Assembly (NCBI RefSeq): GCF_029946005.1
Contig: NZ_JAQSDR010000002.1
Coordinates: forward strand, 1-64,000
Origin: Aquabacterium sp.
GTDB lineage: Bacteria; Pseudomonadota; Gammaproteobacteria; Burkholderiales; Burkholderiaceae_C
Direction: 5' to 3'
Length of the DNA stretch: 64,000 nt
Made by a program: the position numbers and the translations under genes. The notes below the pieces were generated by a model. The model searched no databases. It was given only the letters and a program-made list of their open reading frames with translations, and was not told the origin of the DNA. Shown here piece by piece: positions 54,234 to 64,000 of this stretch (its first letter is position 1; each line of letters opens with the position of its first letter).

Positions 54234-56126
54234 GTGTTGACCGACCAAGACCTCTATCTGTTTGGCGAAGGCACGCACGCACGTTTGCATGACCAACTGG
54301 GCTGCCACCTGTCGCAAGAACTGGAAGGGGCGCACTTCAGGGTTTGGGCGCCCAATGCCGTGAGTGTCTCGGTCATTGGCGATTGGAACCAGTGGGATCC
54401 CCTGGCCCACCCACTGCAGCTTCGCGGTGACCGCAGTGGCCTGTGGGAGGGCCAGGTGCCTCAGGCACGTCACGGTCAGGCTTACAAGTACCGTGTGCAG
54501 GGCCATGGTGGTTTGTACGTGGCCGACAAGGCCGACCCCTTTGCCGTGTACGCTGAAGTTTCACCGGCTAAAGGTAGCCGAGTCTGGTCTCTGGAGCATG
54601 CCTGGGGTGATGGCGACTGGATGCGCACACGCGGCGCCCGCAATGCGCTGGATGCCCCCATGTCGATTTACGAGTTTCACGCGGGCTCATGGCGACGCGA
54701 TCAGGGCCCCGTGAACTACCGCGACCTGGCGCATGAGCTGGCCGACTACATCCTCACGATGGGCTTCACCCATGTGGAGTTGATGCCCATCACTGAGCAC
54801 CCATTTTACGGTTCATGGGGCTACCAGACCACGGGCTACTTCGCCCCCACCTCGCGCTACGGCACTCCACAAGACTTCATGTACTTCGTGGACCACCTGC
54901 ACCAGCAAGGCATCGGCGTGATCCTGGATTGGGTGCCCTCGCACTTCCCCACCGATGAACATGGCTTGCAGTATTTCGACGGCACCCACCTGTTCGAGCA
55001 TGCCGATCCGCGCCAGGGCTTCCACCCGGAATGGAGCTCCAGCATCTTCAATTACGGGCGTGGTGAGGTGCGCAGCTTCCTGATCTCGTCGGCCCTGTTC
55101 TGGCTGGAGAAGTACCACCTTGATGGGCTGCGCGTGGACGCGGTGGCCTCCATGCTTTACCTGGACTACGCGCGCAAGGATGGCGAGTGGATCCCCAACC
55201 AGCATGGCGGCAAGGAAAACCTCGAAGCCGTTGATTTTCTGCGCAAGCTCAACGAGGCTGTTTACCGCGAGCACCCCGATGTCATCACCATCGCGGAAGA
55301 ATCGACCGCCTGGCCGCAGGTGTCGCGCCCGACCTCGATGGGTGGCCTGGGCTTTGGCATGAAGTGGAACATGGGCTGGATGCACGACACCCTGGCCTTC
55401 ATGCACGAAGACCCCATCCACCGCAAGTACCACCTGGGCAAGCTGACTTTTTCGCTGGTCTATGCCTTCAACGAGAACTTCGTGCTGCCCTTGTCGCACG
55501 ACGAGGTGGTCTATGGCAAAGGCTCGCTGTTGGGCAAGATGCCGGGCGATCAATGGCAACGCTTTGCCAACCTGCGAGCCATGTATGGCCTGATGTGGAC
55601 CCACCCCGGCAAGAAGCTGCTGTTCATGGGCGGAGAGTTCGCGCAGGAGCGCGAGTGGACGCACGAAGGCCAGTTGGATTGGGGCTTGACGCAGGACCCG
55701 GCGCACCAGGGTGTGCAACGGATGGTCAGTGAACTCAACCGCGTTTACCGCAGCGAGCCCGCCTTGCACCAGATCGACTTCAGTGACGCGGGGTTTGAGT
55801 GGATCGAAGGCAATGACGTGAGTGCCACGGTGGTGGTTTTTCTGCGCAAAGGCCAGGTCGGCACCGCCCCCTTGCTGGTGGCAGTGAACCTCACCCCCCT
55901 GCCCCGCGAGCATTACCAGGTGGGCGTGCCTTTGGCAGGCCATTGGCGCGAGATTTTCAACAGCGACGCCAAGGAGTTTGGGGGATCTGGCTGGGGCAAC
56001 CTGGGCGGGGCAGACACCAGTCCTGAAGAGTCGCACGGCAGGCCGCACTCCCTGCAGCTGATCTTGCCGCCCCTGTCCACCCTCATCCTTAAACTGGAAG
56101 CGCATGGCATCTCGGAAACCACCTAG
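54234..56126 (+). CDS. glgB: 1,4-alpha-glucan branching enzyme
   Basis: GAHFRVWAPNAVSVSVIGDWNQWD; DGLRVDAVASMLYLDYARKDGEWIPNQHGGKENLEAVDFLRKLN; GTG start. Confidence 0.97.
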   Translation: MLTDQDLYLFGEGTHARLHDQLGCHLSQELEGAHFRVWAPNAVSVSVIGDWNQWDPLAHPLQLRGDRSGLWEGQVPQARHGQAYKYRVQGHGGLYVADKADPFAVYAEVSPAKGSRVWSLEHAWGDGDWMRTRGARNALDAPMSIYEFHAGSWRRDQGPVNYRDLAHELADYILTMGFTHVELMPITEHPFYGSWGYQTTGYFAPTSRYGTPQDFMYFVDHLHQQGIGVILDWVPSHFPTDEHGLQYFDGTHLFEHADPRQGFHPEWSSSIFNYGRGEVRSFLISSALFWLEKYHLDGLRVDAVASMLYLDYARKDGEWIPNQHGGKENLEAVDFLRKLNEAVYREHPDVITIAEESTAWPQVSRPTSMGGLGFGMKWNMGWMHDTLAFMHEDPIHRKYHLGKLTFSLVYAFNENFVLPLSHDEVVYGKGSLLGKMPGDQWQRFANLRAMYGLMWTHPGKKLLFMGGEFAQEREWTHEGQLDWGLTQDPAHQGVQRMVSELNRVYRSEPALHQIDFSDAGFEWIEGNDVSATVVVFLRKGQVGTAPLLVAVNLTPLPREHYQVGVPLAGHWREIFNSDAKEFGGSGWGNLGGADTSPEESHGRPHSLQLILPPLSTLILKLEAHGISETT

Positions 56127-58122
56127 CCAGCGCGAAGGGCGGCAACGCGCGGTGATCGACGCAGTGCTGCCCGTGGTGGACGCTGGCCGCTTCGCGGTCA
56201 AGACCATTGCTGGCGAGCCCATGCGCATCCAGGCCAATTGCTTCACCGACGGGCACGATGTGCTGCGCGTGATGCTGCGCTGGCGCTCCGAGCACGACAC
56301 CACGCCGCAAGACATCGAGATGAAGCTGGCCTTCAACGACGAGTGGTTCGCCGAGTTCACGCCCGAAAAGCCCGGCCGTTACTTCTACAGTGTGCTGGCC
56401 TGGGTCGATCCCTTCGAGTCCTGGCGCCATGAATTGACCCGACGCGTGGACGAGGAAGACATTCGCCTTGCAGCCCTGGTGGGGGCGGAACTGATCGACG
56501 ACGCCGCCAAGCGCGCCAAGGCCACCGACAAGGCCGAACTGGGGGCCTGGGCCCAGCAACTGCGCAAACACCCAGGCGATGCCCAGACCCTGAAAGCCCT
56601 GGCGCTAGGCGAGGCTCAGGCCGACGTGGCCCGCCGCTACCCCGACCGCCAACTGGCGACCCACTTCCCCATCGAACTGCCCTTGGTGGCCGACCGGGCG
56701 CGCGCCCGCTACAGCAGCTGGTACGAGCTCTTCCCGCGATCGGCCTCGTTCGAGCCCGGCCAGCACGGCACCTTCCAGGACGTGGCGCGGCGCCTGCCCT
56801 ACGTGGCAGCGATGGGCTTTGACGTGCTGTATTTCCCACCCATCCACCCCATCGGGCGCGAGAAGCGCAAAGGCCGCAACAACGCACTCACAATCGAGCC
56901 TGGTGATGTTGGCAGCCCTTGGGCCATCGGGGCACTGGAAGGCGGCCACAAAGACCTGCTGCCCGAGCTGGGCACCATCGAAGACTTCCGATCCCTGGTG
57001 AGCCAGGCCCGCGATCTGGGCCTGGAGATCGCCCTCGACATCGCCTTCCAGTGCGCCCCCGACCACCCTTATGTGCAGGCCCACCCCGAATGGTTCAAAT
57101 GGCGCCCGGATGGCACGGTGCAATACGCCGAAAACCCGCCCAAGAAGTACCAGGACATCTACCCCTTCAACTTCGAGACTACCGACTGGCGCGCTCTGTG
57201 GCAAGAATTGAAAAGCGTGTTTGATCATTGGATCAACGAGGGCGTGACCATCTTCCGGGTGGACAACCCGCACACCAAGGCCTTCCCCTTCTGGGAGTGG
57301 GCCATCACCGCCATCAAGCGCGAACATCCCGAGGTGCTTTTCCTGGCCGAGGCCTTCACGCGGCCCAAGGTCATGCACCGCCTGGCCAAGCTGGGTTACT
57401 CGCAGTCGTACACCTACTTCACCTGGCGCAACACCAAGCAGGAGTTGACCGACTATTTCACCGAACTTTCCCAAGGCCCCGGCAACGATTACTTCCGCCC
57501 CAATGTGTGGCCCAACACGCCCGACATCCTCAACGAACACCTGCACGCAGGCGGTCGCCCCATCTTCGCGCTGCGACTGGTGCTGGCCGCCACACTGTCC
57601 TCCAACTATGGCGTCTACGGCCCGGCCTATGAGCTGTTGGACAGCGCACCCCGCAGCCCCGGTAGCGAGGAGTACCTCAACTCCGAAAAATACCAGTTGC
57701 GCCACTGGGGCGAGTGGGACGTGGCCCGGCCCGACAGCCTGGCCCAGCTCATCGCGCAGATCAACACCATCCGGCGCGAGAACCCCGCCTTGCAATCGAA
57801 CGCCAGCTTGCGATTCTTCAACACCGACAACGACCAGCTCATCGCCTACGTCAAGCAGACGGCCGATGGTGACAACATCATCCTGGTCGTCGTCAACCTG
57901 GACCCGCACAACCCGCAGTCCGGTTGGATCAACCTGGATGCCGAAGCCATGAACCTTGACCCTGCTTCCCAGTATGAAGTGCATGACTTGTTGAGCGCGC
58001 AGCGCTTCACCTGGCAGGGTTTGCGCAACTTCGTCATACTGGATCCGACACAAGCGCCTGCCCACGTTTTCCGCTTGCGAAAGCGGGTGCAGGACGAGCG
58101 CCACTTCGACAATTTCGCCTGA
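56104..58122 (+). CDS. glgE: Alpha-1,4-glucan:maltose-1-phosphate maltosyltransferase
   Basis: YSSWYELFPRSASFEPGQHGTFQDVARRLPYVAAMGFDVLYFPPIHPIGREKRKGRNN; overlaps glgB by 23 nt. Confidence 0.97.
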   Translation: MASRKPPSQREGRQRAVIDAVLPVVDAGRFAVKTIAGEPMRIQANCFTDGHDVLRVMLRWRSEHDTTPQDIEMKLAFNDEWFAEFTPEKPGRYFYSVLAWVDPFESWRHELTRRVDEEDIRLAALVGAELIDDAAKRAKATDKAELGAWAQQLRKHPGDAQTLKALALGEAQADVARRYPDRQLATHFPIELPLVADRARARYSSWYELFPRSASFEPGQHGTFQDVARRLPYVAAMGFDVLYFPPIHPIGREKRKGRNNALTIEPGDVGSPWAIGALEGGHKDLLPELGTIEDFRSLVSQARDLGLEIALDIAFQCAPDHPYVQAHPEWFKWRPDGTVQYAENPPKKYQDIYPFNFETTDWRALWQELKSVFDHWINEGVTIFRVDNPHTKAFPFWEWAITAIKREHPEVLFLAEAFTRPKVMHRLAKLGYSQSYTYFTWRNTKQELTDYFTELSQGPGNDYFRPNVWPNTPDILNEHLHAGGRPIFALRLVLAATLSSNYGVYGPAYELLDSAPRSPGSEEYLNSEKYQLRHWGEWDVARPDSLAQLIAQINTIRRENPALQSNASLRFFNTDNDQLIAYVKQTADGDNIILVVVNLDPHNPQSGWINLDAEAMNLDPASQYEVHDLLSAQRFTWQGLRNFVILDPTQAPAHVFRLRKRVQDERHFDNFA

Positions 58123-58132
58123 GAGCGCCTAG

Positions 58133-61477
<3,345 letters not shown>

Positions 61478-61489
61478 GAGAAAAAATCC

Positions 61490-62173
61490 ATGGAAAGAGT
61501 CGACGTGTACCTTGAACCTGTCAGGGCCTTCCTGTTTGAGCTGGGCGCCTTCCTGCCCCGCTTGGGCGTGGCCATCCTGGTGATGCTGCTCGGCATCCTG
61601 CTGGCCAAGGCCGCGCGGTTTGCCATCCAGCGCGGCCTGCGCGCCATCAACTTCCACATCCTGACCAAACGCTCGGGCATGGACAGCTTCCTTAAAAAGG
61701 GCGGCACCCTGATCGACACGGTGGACCTGTTCGGCCTGCTGGCTTACTGGCTCGTCATCTTGATCGCGCTGGTGGTGGCCTTCAATGGCCTGGGCCTGAC
61801 CCATGTGACCGAGTTGCTGGGCCGAGTGATGTGGTTCGTGCCCAAGGTGATCGTGGCGCTGCTGATCCTGGCCTTTGGCGCCTACTTCGCGCGCTTCGTG
61901 GCCAACGCGGTCTACACCTATTGCGAAAACGCTGGCATCCACGATGGCGACTCGCTATCCCGCCTGGCCCGGTACGCCATCATGGCCTTTGTGGTGATGA
62001 TCGCGCTGGACCAGATGGAAGTGGGCGGCACCATCATCCGCGATGCTTTCCTCATCGTGCTGGGTGGCGTTGTTCTGGCCATCGCCCTGGCGTTTGGCCT
62101 GGGCGGGCGAGAATGGGCTGCGGCCCGCCTGGAAGAGTGGTGGCCCACCAGCAAGCGGGACAAGATCCCCTGA
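61490..62173 (+). CDS. Mechanosensitive-channel-like membrane protein (conserved TM helix / MscS type)
   Basis: Multiple TM helices; LRAINFHILTKRSGMDSFLKKGGTLIDTVDLFGLLAYWLVILIALVVAFNGLGL. Confidence 0.82.
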   Translation: MERVDVYLEPVRAFLFELGAFLPRLGVAILVMLLGILLAKAARFAIQRGLRAINFHILTKRSGMDSFLKKGGTLIDTVDLFGLLAYWLVILIALVVAFNGLGLTHVTELLGRVMWFVPKVIVALLILAFGAYFARFVANAVYTYCENAGIHDGDSLSRLARYAIMAFVVMIALDQMEVGGTIIRDAFLIVLGGVVLAIALAFGLGGREWAAARLEEWWPTSKRDKIP

Positions 62174-62251
62174 TCGCCGGTTGTTCCTGAGAACGGCCTG
62201 CCAAGATGGGTGTCAACATGCCTGTCGTCAGATCTTGCGATGGAGACCGCC

Positions 62252-63445
62252 ATGAACAACCACGCTGCCCTGGTCGAAGAGTCGCTGGTCCAGCTCTGCA
62301 CCACCGAATCCCTCGAATTGCTGCGCCGCAACCTCACGCCCCGCGGCATCCTCGCGGCCAGCCGCACCGAGGCCGCCGAAGCGCGCAGCTACACCCGCGT
62401 GTTTGGCCGGGATGCCGCCATCTGCGTGCTGGCCATGGCGGGCAGTGGCGATGCCGCGCTGGAGCAAGGCGCGGTGGCCAGCCTCGACTCGCTGGCCGAA
62501 CTGCAAGCCCGCAACGGCCAGATCCCCAAGTACGTGGACCCCGAAGGCCAGGATGCCGATTTTTGGTACCTGGGCTGCATCGACGCCACCCTGTGGTGGT
62601 TGATCGCGGTGGACCACGTTCGCCGCCATGGCCAATGGCCCGACATGGCCCAGCGGTGGCAGCCGCAGGTTGATCTGGCCATCAACTGGCTGATGGCGCA
62701 AGAGCATCAGAAGTTCTTCTTGCTGCAGCAAAACGAGGCCAGTGACTGGGCCGACATCATGCCGCGCTCTGGCTTCGTGCTGTACACCAACGCCCTGTGG
62801 TACCGCGTCAAGCTGCTGTTCGAACTGCCCTGCCTGGAAGAAACGCACTACCACTTCAACCACCTGTTCCACCCTTTCAAGCGCGACCTGCCCGAGTACC
62901 GGCGTGGCCGCCTGCTGAGCCACTACGCACGGCGCGGCCAACGCAACCCGGGCCTGTACCTCAGCTTCGTCAACCTGTCCTTCGTGGGCGACGAGGGCGA
63001 TGTGTTTGGCAACATTTTGGCCGTGCTTTATGGCCTGGCGGACGATTCGATGGCCAAGGAGGTGGTGAAGACCCTGCAAACGGCGGCCGTGGCCGAGCCC
63101 TACCCAGTGCGCGCCGTGACCACCCCCATCGACACCGACCACGAGCTGTGGCGCGCCTACATGGGCCGCCACCAGCAGAACCACCCGCACCAGTACCACA
63201 ACGGCGGCATCTGGCCCTTCATTGGTGGCTTCTGGGCGCTGATGCTCGCCGAGATGGGCAAGAAGGCCTGGGCCGAGCAGGAGCTGGCCAAGTTGGCGCA
63301 TGTCAACAGCCTGGACGACTGGCGCTTCACCGAGTGGTTTCATGGGCAGACGCTCAAACCCATGGGCATGGCGGGGCAGAGCTGGAATGCGGCGGCTTAT
63401 TTGATGGCGCAGAAGGCGTTGGGGGAAACCGGCTTGAGCGCTTAA
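62252..63445 (+). CDS. (alpha/alpha)6-barrel glycosidase (amylo-alpha-1,6-glucosidase / GH100-invertase-like)
   Basis: SYTRVFGRDAAICVLAMAGSGD, IPKYVDP, DFWYLGCIDATLWWL, HNGGIWPFIGGFWALML, FTEWFHGQTLKPMGMAGQSWNAAAYLMA; start at MNNHAA. Confidence 0.82.
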   Translation: MNNHAALVEESLVQLCTTESLELLRRNLTPRGILAASRTEAAEARSYTRVFGRDAAICVLAMAGSGDAALEQGAVASLDSLAELQARNGQIPKYVDPEGQDADFWYLGCIDATLWWLIAVDHVRRHGQWPDMAQRWQPQVDLAINWLMAQEHQKFFLLQQNEASDWADIMPRSGFVLYTNALWYRVKLLFELPCLEETHYHFNHLFHPFKRDLPEYRRGRLLSHYARRGQRNPGLYLSFVNLSFVGDEGDVFGNILAVLYGLADDSMAKEVVKTLQTAAVAEPYPVRAVTTPIDTDHELWRAYMGRHQQNHPHQYHNGGIWPFIGGFWALMLAEMGKKAWAEQELAKLAHVNSLDDWRFTEWFHGQTLKPMGMAGQSWNAAAYLMAQKALGETGLSA

Positions 63446-63458
63446 TTTTTGCTGGGCG

Positions 63459-63549
63459 AAAAAGACAGAAGGCCGCATGTAGCGGCCTTCTCATTTGGTG
63501 CTCTTCAGCTTGTTAGCGGACAGAACGCATATCCCGATCATCTAACGTG
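63459..63549 (-). ncRNA. Candidate minus-strand small RNA (possible tracrRNA) upstream of cas9
   Basis: Minus-strand TTACAA-N18-TATACT at 63556-63585 and a terminator-like hairpin plus T5 at 63459-63491. Confidence 0.35.
63467..63491. terminator. Intrinsic-terminator hairpin between the glycosidase gene and cas9
   Basis: Perfect 10-bp stem AGAAGGCCGC-ATGTA-GCGGCCTTCT; the stronger T-tract (GTCTTTTT) follows on the minus strand. Confidence 0.75.
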
Positions 63550-63606
63550 ATGCCGAGTATATGCTGTAGCCTGCTACCGTTGTAATCAAATGCAGGGAGA
63601 AAAGGC

Positions 63607-64000
63607 ATGCTGCCTAAAATGCGCTACCGCTTGGCGTTGGACCTTGGCACAACCTCCATTGGGTGGGCCATGATTCGCCTGGATGCAGAAAAGGCTCCGG
63701 TGGCCATCATCCGCATGGGCGCTCGCATTTTCCCAGATGGGCGCAATCCCAAAGACGGCAGCTCCTTGGCCGTCACACGGCGAGCCGCTCGTCAAATGCG
63801 ACGCAGGCGTGATCGTTTGCTGAAGCGAAAAGAGCAGATGCTGGCCTCGCTGACGCGCCTGGGGTTTTTCCCCACCGATGAAGTGCAGCGCAGAGCACTG
63901 GTCACTTTGGACCCTTACGTGCTCCGCAAAAAAGGTCTGCATGAAATCCTAACCGGACCTGAGTTTGCGCGAGCACTGTTTCACATCAATCAGCGCAGAG
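63607..64000 (+). CDS. cas9: CRISPR-associated endonuclease Cas9, N-terminal part (runs off window; likely type II-C)
   Basis: MLPKMRYRLALDLGTTSIGWAMIRLD (RuvC-I) ... GARIFPDGRNPKDGSSLAVTRRAARQMRRRRDRLLKRKEQML (bridge helix) ... DPYVLRKKGLHEILTGPEFARALFHINQRR; SD AGGGAG upstream; open to the window end. Confidence 0.95.
   Translation, partial: MLPKMRYRLALDLGTTSIGWAMIRLDAEKAPVAIIRMGARIFPDGRNPKDGSSLAVTRRAARQMRRRRDRLLKRKEQMLASLTRLGFFPTDEVQRRALVTLDPYVLRKKGLHEILTGPEFARALFHINQRR

Follow-up and report, generated by a model that had tools for sequence, protein, structure and literature searches.

A type II-C CRISPR-Cas9 locus, predicted to be active, in an Aquabacterium genome

The type II-C CRISPR-Cas9 system of Bordetella pseudohinzii, which is expressed and homologous to that of Alicycliphilus denitrificans, has a divergent tracrRNA gene with its terminator upstream of cas9, the gene order cas9-cas1-cas2 with the array downstream, 36-nt repeats, spacers of ~30 nt and an altered terminal repeat; the locus is missing from relatives, and so was horizontally acquired (PMC4624362). 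More generally, each repeat of a II-C array has been reported to contain a promoter, in the form of a -10 box, at its 3′ end (PMC12638026), and spacer acquisition at the 3′ end has also been reported for II-C. The Aquabacterium locus described here is like the Bordetella one in each of these features of layout and in its absence from relatives, and differs from it in host, in spacers and in the number of repeats (26, as against 22 in B. pseudohinzii).

The DNA analysed, referred to below as the window, is a stretch of 64,000 nucleotides (positions 1-64000 of contig C2 of genome G000, a contig of 407,666 bases), and its continuation was followed in segment L003 (contig C2 63001-78000), the first 1000 bases of which are identical to the window's last 1000. 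A preliminary description had recognised the start of a Cas9 at 63607, on the strength of a RuvC-I motif (ALDLGTTSIGWAM), an Arg-rich bridge helix and the pattern DPYVLRKKGL...ALFHINQRR, all of which are indeed found on translation. It had also remarked that this frame is missing from the ORF track, which is the case because the frame is open where it runs off the end of the window and the track holds no open ends. Past the edge, neither the early stop nor the frameshift that had been considered there occurs, and the frame stays open until contig position 66672 (Table 1).

The complete protein matches profile TIGR01865 with 610 bits (cut-off 100) as well as the Pfam families HNH_4, RuvC_III and Cas9_a, and its gene is immediately preceded by a ribosome-binding site. 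All the catalytic residues are conserved: RuvC-I Asp12 near the N-terminus, Glu515 (VEVTRDL), His608 (EIEHILPYS), and His749 with Asp752 (HRHHALDAAVI) are each unchanged in 50 of 50 aligned Cas9s. Both the HNH and the RuvC motifs of a type II nuclease are intact. A profile search of this genome returned a single Cas9 and a single Cas1 scoring above the curated cut-offs. A second, weak N-terminus match, at C4:2243 (E 9e-4), is spurious, being antisense to a long repeat protein. Also on contig C4, segment L004 (1-2647) encodes a long tandem-repeat protein (ALTTAQVAAIETTDI...) with a C-terminal calcium-binding-like domain, which looks like a secreted surface protein.

Table 1. Positions of the features of the locus (single positions in the form a..b are those of the window)
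Feature	Location	Strand	Size or content	Evidence or context
tracrRNA gene	63460..63549	-	about 90 nt	divergent from cas9; position and sequence conserved in 31 loci
Intrinsic terminator of tracrRNA	63467..63491	-	AGAAGGCCGC-TACAT-GCGGCCTTCT + GTCTTTTT	
Anti-repeat	63517..63544	-	28 nt	93% complementary to CRISPR repeat
-10-like box, candidate tracrRNA promoter	63556..63561	-	TATACT	read directly from sequence
5′ part of cas9	63607..64000	+	residues 1-131 of 1021	translation, profiles, GGAGA upstream
Complete cas9	contig C2 63607-66672	+	1021 aa	
cas1	contig C2 66676-67608		310 aa	TIGR03639 (type II form), 240 bits
cas2	contig C2 67628-67954		108 aa from its ATG	TIGR01573, 60 bits
cas2-array hairpin	contig C2 67974-68024 (L003 4974-5024)			between cas2 and first repeat
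CRISPR array	contig C2 68025-69711		26 repeats of 36 nt, 25 spacers	
RHH-ParE-type toxin-antitoxin pair	contig C2 69751-70292 (L003 6751-7292)	-		directly beyond array

As had been anticipated, cas9 is the first gene of the operon, with cas1, cas2 and the array to its right: cas1 begins 4 nt after cas9, cas2 comes next, and the interval between cas2 and the array is gene-free. The suggestion of type II-C, originally made from the style of the sequence, is supported, since the operon consists of cas9, cas1 and cas2 only, csn2 (II-A) and cas4 (II-B) being absent as judged by gene order at the locus. The expectation that nothing lay upstream held for cas genes and failed for RNA, since a tracrRNA gene, also within the window, lies upstream on the minus strand. 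The elements by which type II is recognised, namely a Cas9 with RuvC and HNH, an anti-repeat tracrRNA, cas1, cas2 and a CRISPR array, are thus all present, and we regard it as almost certain that the locus is a CRISPR-Cas9 immune system of type II-C, complete and of an ordinary kind, with activity predicted from the sequence. Its neighbours are a glucosidase-type gene, the ParE-type toxin-antitoxin pair and a presumed secB gene.

The anti-repeat was found through inverted repeats against the array. The crRNA:tracrRNA duplex is predicted to form and to be followed by a hairpin and the terminator, the hairpin of which is also kept in relatives. A promoter scan upstream of the tracrRNA gave no full sigma-70 site and no -35 match, and we infer the putative 5′ end (~63549) from the TATACT box. 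Across the 31 loci with a detectable anti-repeat, repeat and anti-repeat pair in 629 of 651 cells (columns 8-28), as against 554 ± 7 (maximum 579) in shuffles that ignore the relatedness of the loci. This covariation supports the reading that tracrRNA and crRNA would both come from the minus strand.

The array itself is regular, with 25 different spacers (30 nt in 24 cases, 31 nt in the other), and with 25 of its 26 repeats identical, the last deviating in its final 5 nt. In crRNA sense the 3′ hexamer of the repeat is a -10-like TANAMT in 31 of 31 loci (TAGACT, TAAACT, TAGAAT and so on), and these boxes would be promoters inside the repeats, as expected for II-C arrays. Transcription is placed, most likely, on the minus strand and toward the cas genes. 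Altered last repeats are found at the far end of the array both here and in several related arrays, which suggests that spacers enter beside cas2, where the transcript would end. Compared with its own genome, the array has one strong second match, the tracrRNA anti-repeat, all others being at chance level, so that there is no sign of self-targeting.

Between cas2 and the first repeat lies a hairpin that occurs at the same place, with compensatory changes, in 30 of 30 aligned loci (among L005-L055). In these loci 91.7% of its cells are paired, as against 28-61% when the hairpin is slid, and it shows 25 double changes, as against 5.9 in shuffles. On the minus strand it is followed by a T-run in most relatives, more weakly in the present locus, and we interpret it as a terminator at which the leftward crRNA transcript would stop. 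The only match in Rfam, to a microRNA family, fell on this hairpin and is due to chance. That the hairpin might serve two purposes in this II-C group, both ending the leftward crRNA transcript and marking the end at which Cas1-Cas2 acquire spacers, we consider unlikely; were it so, spacers would be added at the transcript's downstream end. This covarying terminator hairpin is the sole detail for which no published counterpart was found, within a small sample of the literature.

How the system would work, from transcription and maturation to cleavage, and including the end that receives new spacers, we infer as follows. Cas1-Cas2, with Cas9, would put pieces of phage DNA of ~30 nt between the 36-nt repeats, and crRNAs would be transcribed from the minus strand, starting at the -10 boxes that end each repeat. 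Each crRNA would then pair with the tracrRNA, whose gene lies on the minus strand next to the start of cas9, and the paired RNAs would direct Cas9 to matching phage DNA for cutting by its HNH and RuvC sites.

One spacer matches a phage helicase gene. Spacer 24 (L003 6543-6609), the sole 31-nt spacer, matches phage contigs L121 and L124 at 30 of 30 positions, with one extra base set aside, and 26 further viral contigs at 28-29 of 30 or slightly fewer, the targets having been retrieved by a pattern made from spacer 24 itself and degenerate at wobble positions. The extra base, which adjoins the following repeat, mismatches all 28 targets; it probably belongs to the repeat and suggests imprecise integration. 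In a prophage homologue (L094) the target gene has phage primase/helicase and DnaB-like family matches and sits among genes that appear phage-like when their translations are read by eye. Of eight spacers scanned against viral contigs with patterns either exact or allowing for wobble, spacer 24 alone gave a match; spacers 1, 5, 6, 10, 14, 17 and 22 gave none. Spacer matches to named phages (spacer 16) were rejected as weak or of low complexity, and the genomic matches of spacers 12, 5 and 1 seem to be due to chance resemblance to GC-rich coding sequence. A PAM is not readable from the target of spacer 24, a conserved coding site whose flanking bases are constrained because they specify an IGL motif of the protein.

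It could be asked whether the locus is degenerate, with genes intact in outline and no longer functional, for which the altered end of the last repeat and the many spacers without known target (most of them) might be cited; but a changed last repeat is what arrays normally show at their old end, and relatives have it too, the cas9 frame is undamaged with every catalytic residue in place, the other repeats are uniform and the tracrRNA still matches them, all of which makes inactivity very improbable. A relative of Cas9 that is IscB-like or stands alone, with no adaptive CRISPR system around it, would be compatible with the window's 131 aa alone, and the preliminary description had tied an IscB-like protein to lack of an HNH domain; this reading is refuted for practical purposes by the Pfam HNH_4 match and by a full-length Cas9, REC lobe included, accompanied by cas1, cas2, array and tracrRNA.

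Returning to the complete II-C system, its segment of ~7 kb is absent at the same place in three close relatives of the same genus, where the glucosidase-type and secB genes stand about 130-170 bp apart. Because of this empty site, of nearest Cas9s that occur in other bacteria, and of a GC content of 54-55% for cas9 and array (64% for the window), the segment from tracrRNA through cas genes and array to toxin-antitoxin pair fits horizontal acquisition. The pair, a ribbon-helix-helix antitoxin and a ParE-type toxin, lies inside the acquired segment. It was rejected as a regular partner of such arrays, as Pfam recognised no such pair in nine other flanks sampled, one of which held a lone HTH protein. 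On the other side, window positions 54234-63445 hold a run of carbohydrate genes that ends where the CRISPR segment inserted; from their translations these apparently serve glycogen/trehalose metabolism and include a branching enzyme, a trehalose synthase-like and a glucosidase-like protein.

Close relatives of this Cas9 numbered >50 in one scan. Those nearest, 71-77% identical, belong to Gallionellaceae, Rhodoferax, Curvibacter and unclassified MAGs. Within the genus, two other genomes among 36 searched carry a homologous Cas9 (Aquabacterium parvum B6 and MAG REEB19), 54-55% identical and placed elsewhere in a tree that comprises only relatives found with this protein. Four of the relatives (MAG nzgw581, Gallionellaceae UBA2239, a Rhodoferax MAG and a Burkholderiales MAG), with Cas9s 75.7-76.7% identical, have the same operon, repeat and tracrRNA design as here, and differ in that their C-terminal WED/PI regions are just 61-70% identical. 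Because this lies below the overall identity of 76-77%, the PAM may differ from that of the nearest relatives. This would be of practical interest only if put to experiment; the protein is one more compact II-C Cas9, of 1021 aa, with an intact guide system.

Among solved structures, the best sequence matches come from Cas9s some 1080 aa long and include the Protein Data Bank chains 9ar4, 8jtj and 6jdq, among which are what we take to be the Geobacillus and Neisseria type II-C enzymes. Their RuvC/HNH and N-terminal regions align with the present Cas9; they are distant from it and their C-terminal PAM-interacting region is unaligned. The plasmid pTEGF4 of Limnohabitans sp. TEGF004 likewise has the order cas9-cas1-cas2-array followed by a toxin-antitoxin pair, and differs in being plasmid-borne, in a toxin of PemK/MazF type rather than ParE type and in a Cas9 that falls on the tree's other major branch. 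The architecture of the Aquabacterium locus is common and of known type, and the locus adds one further member to it.
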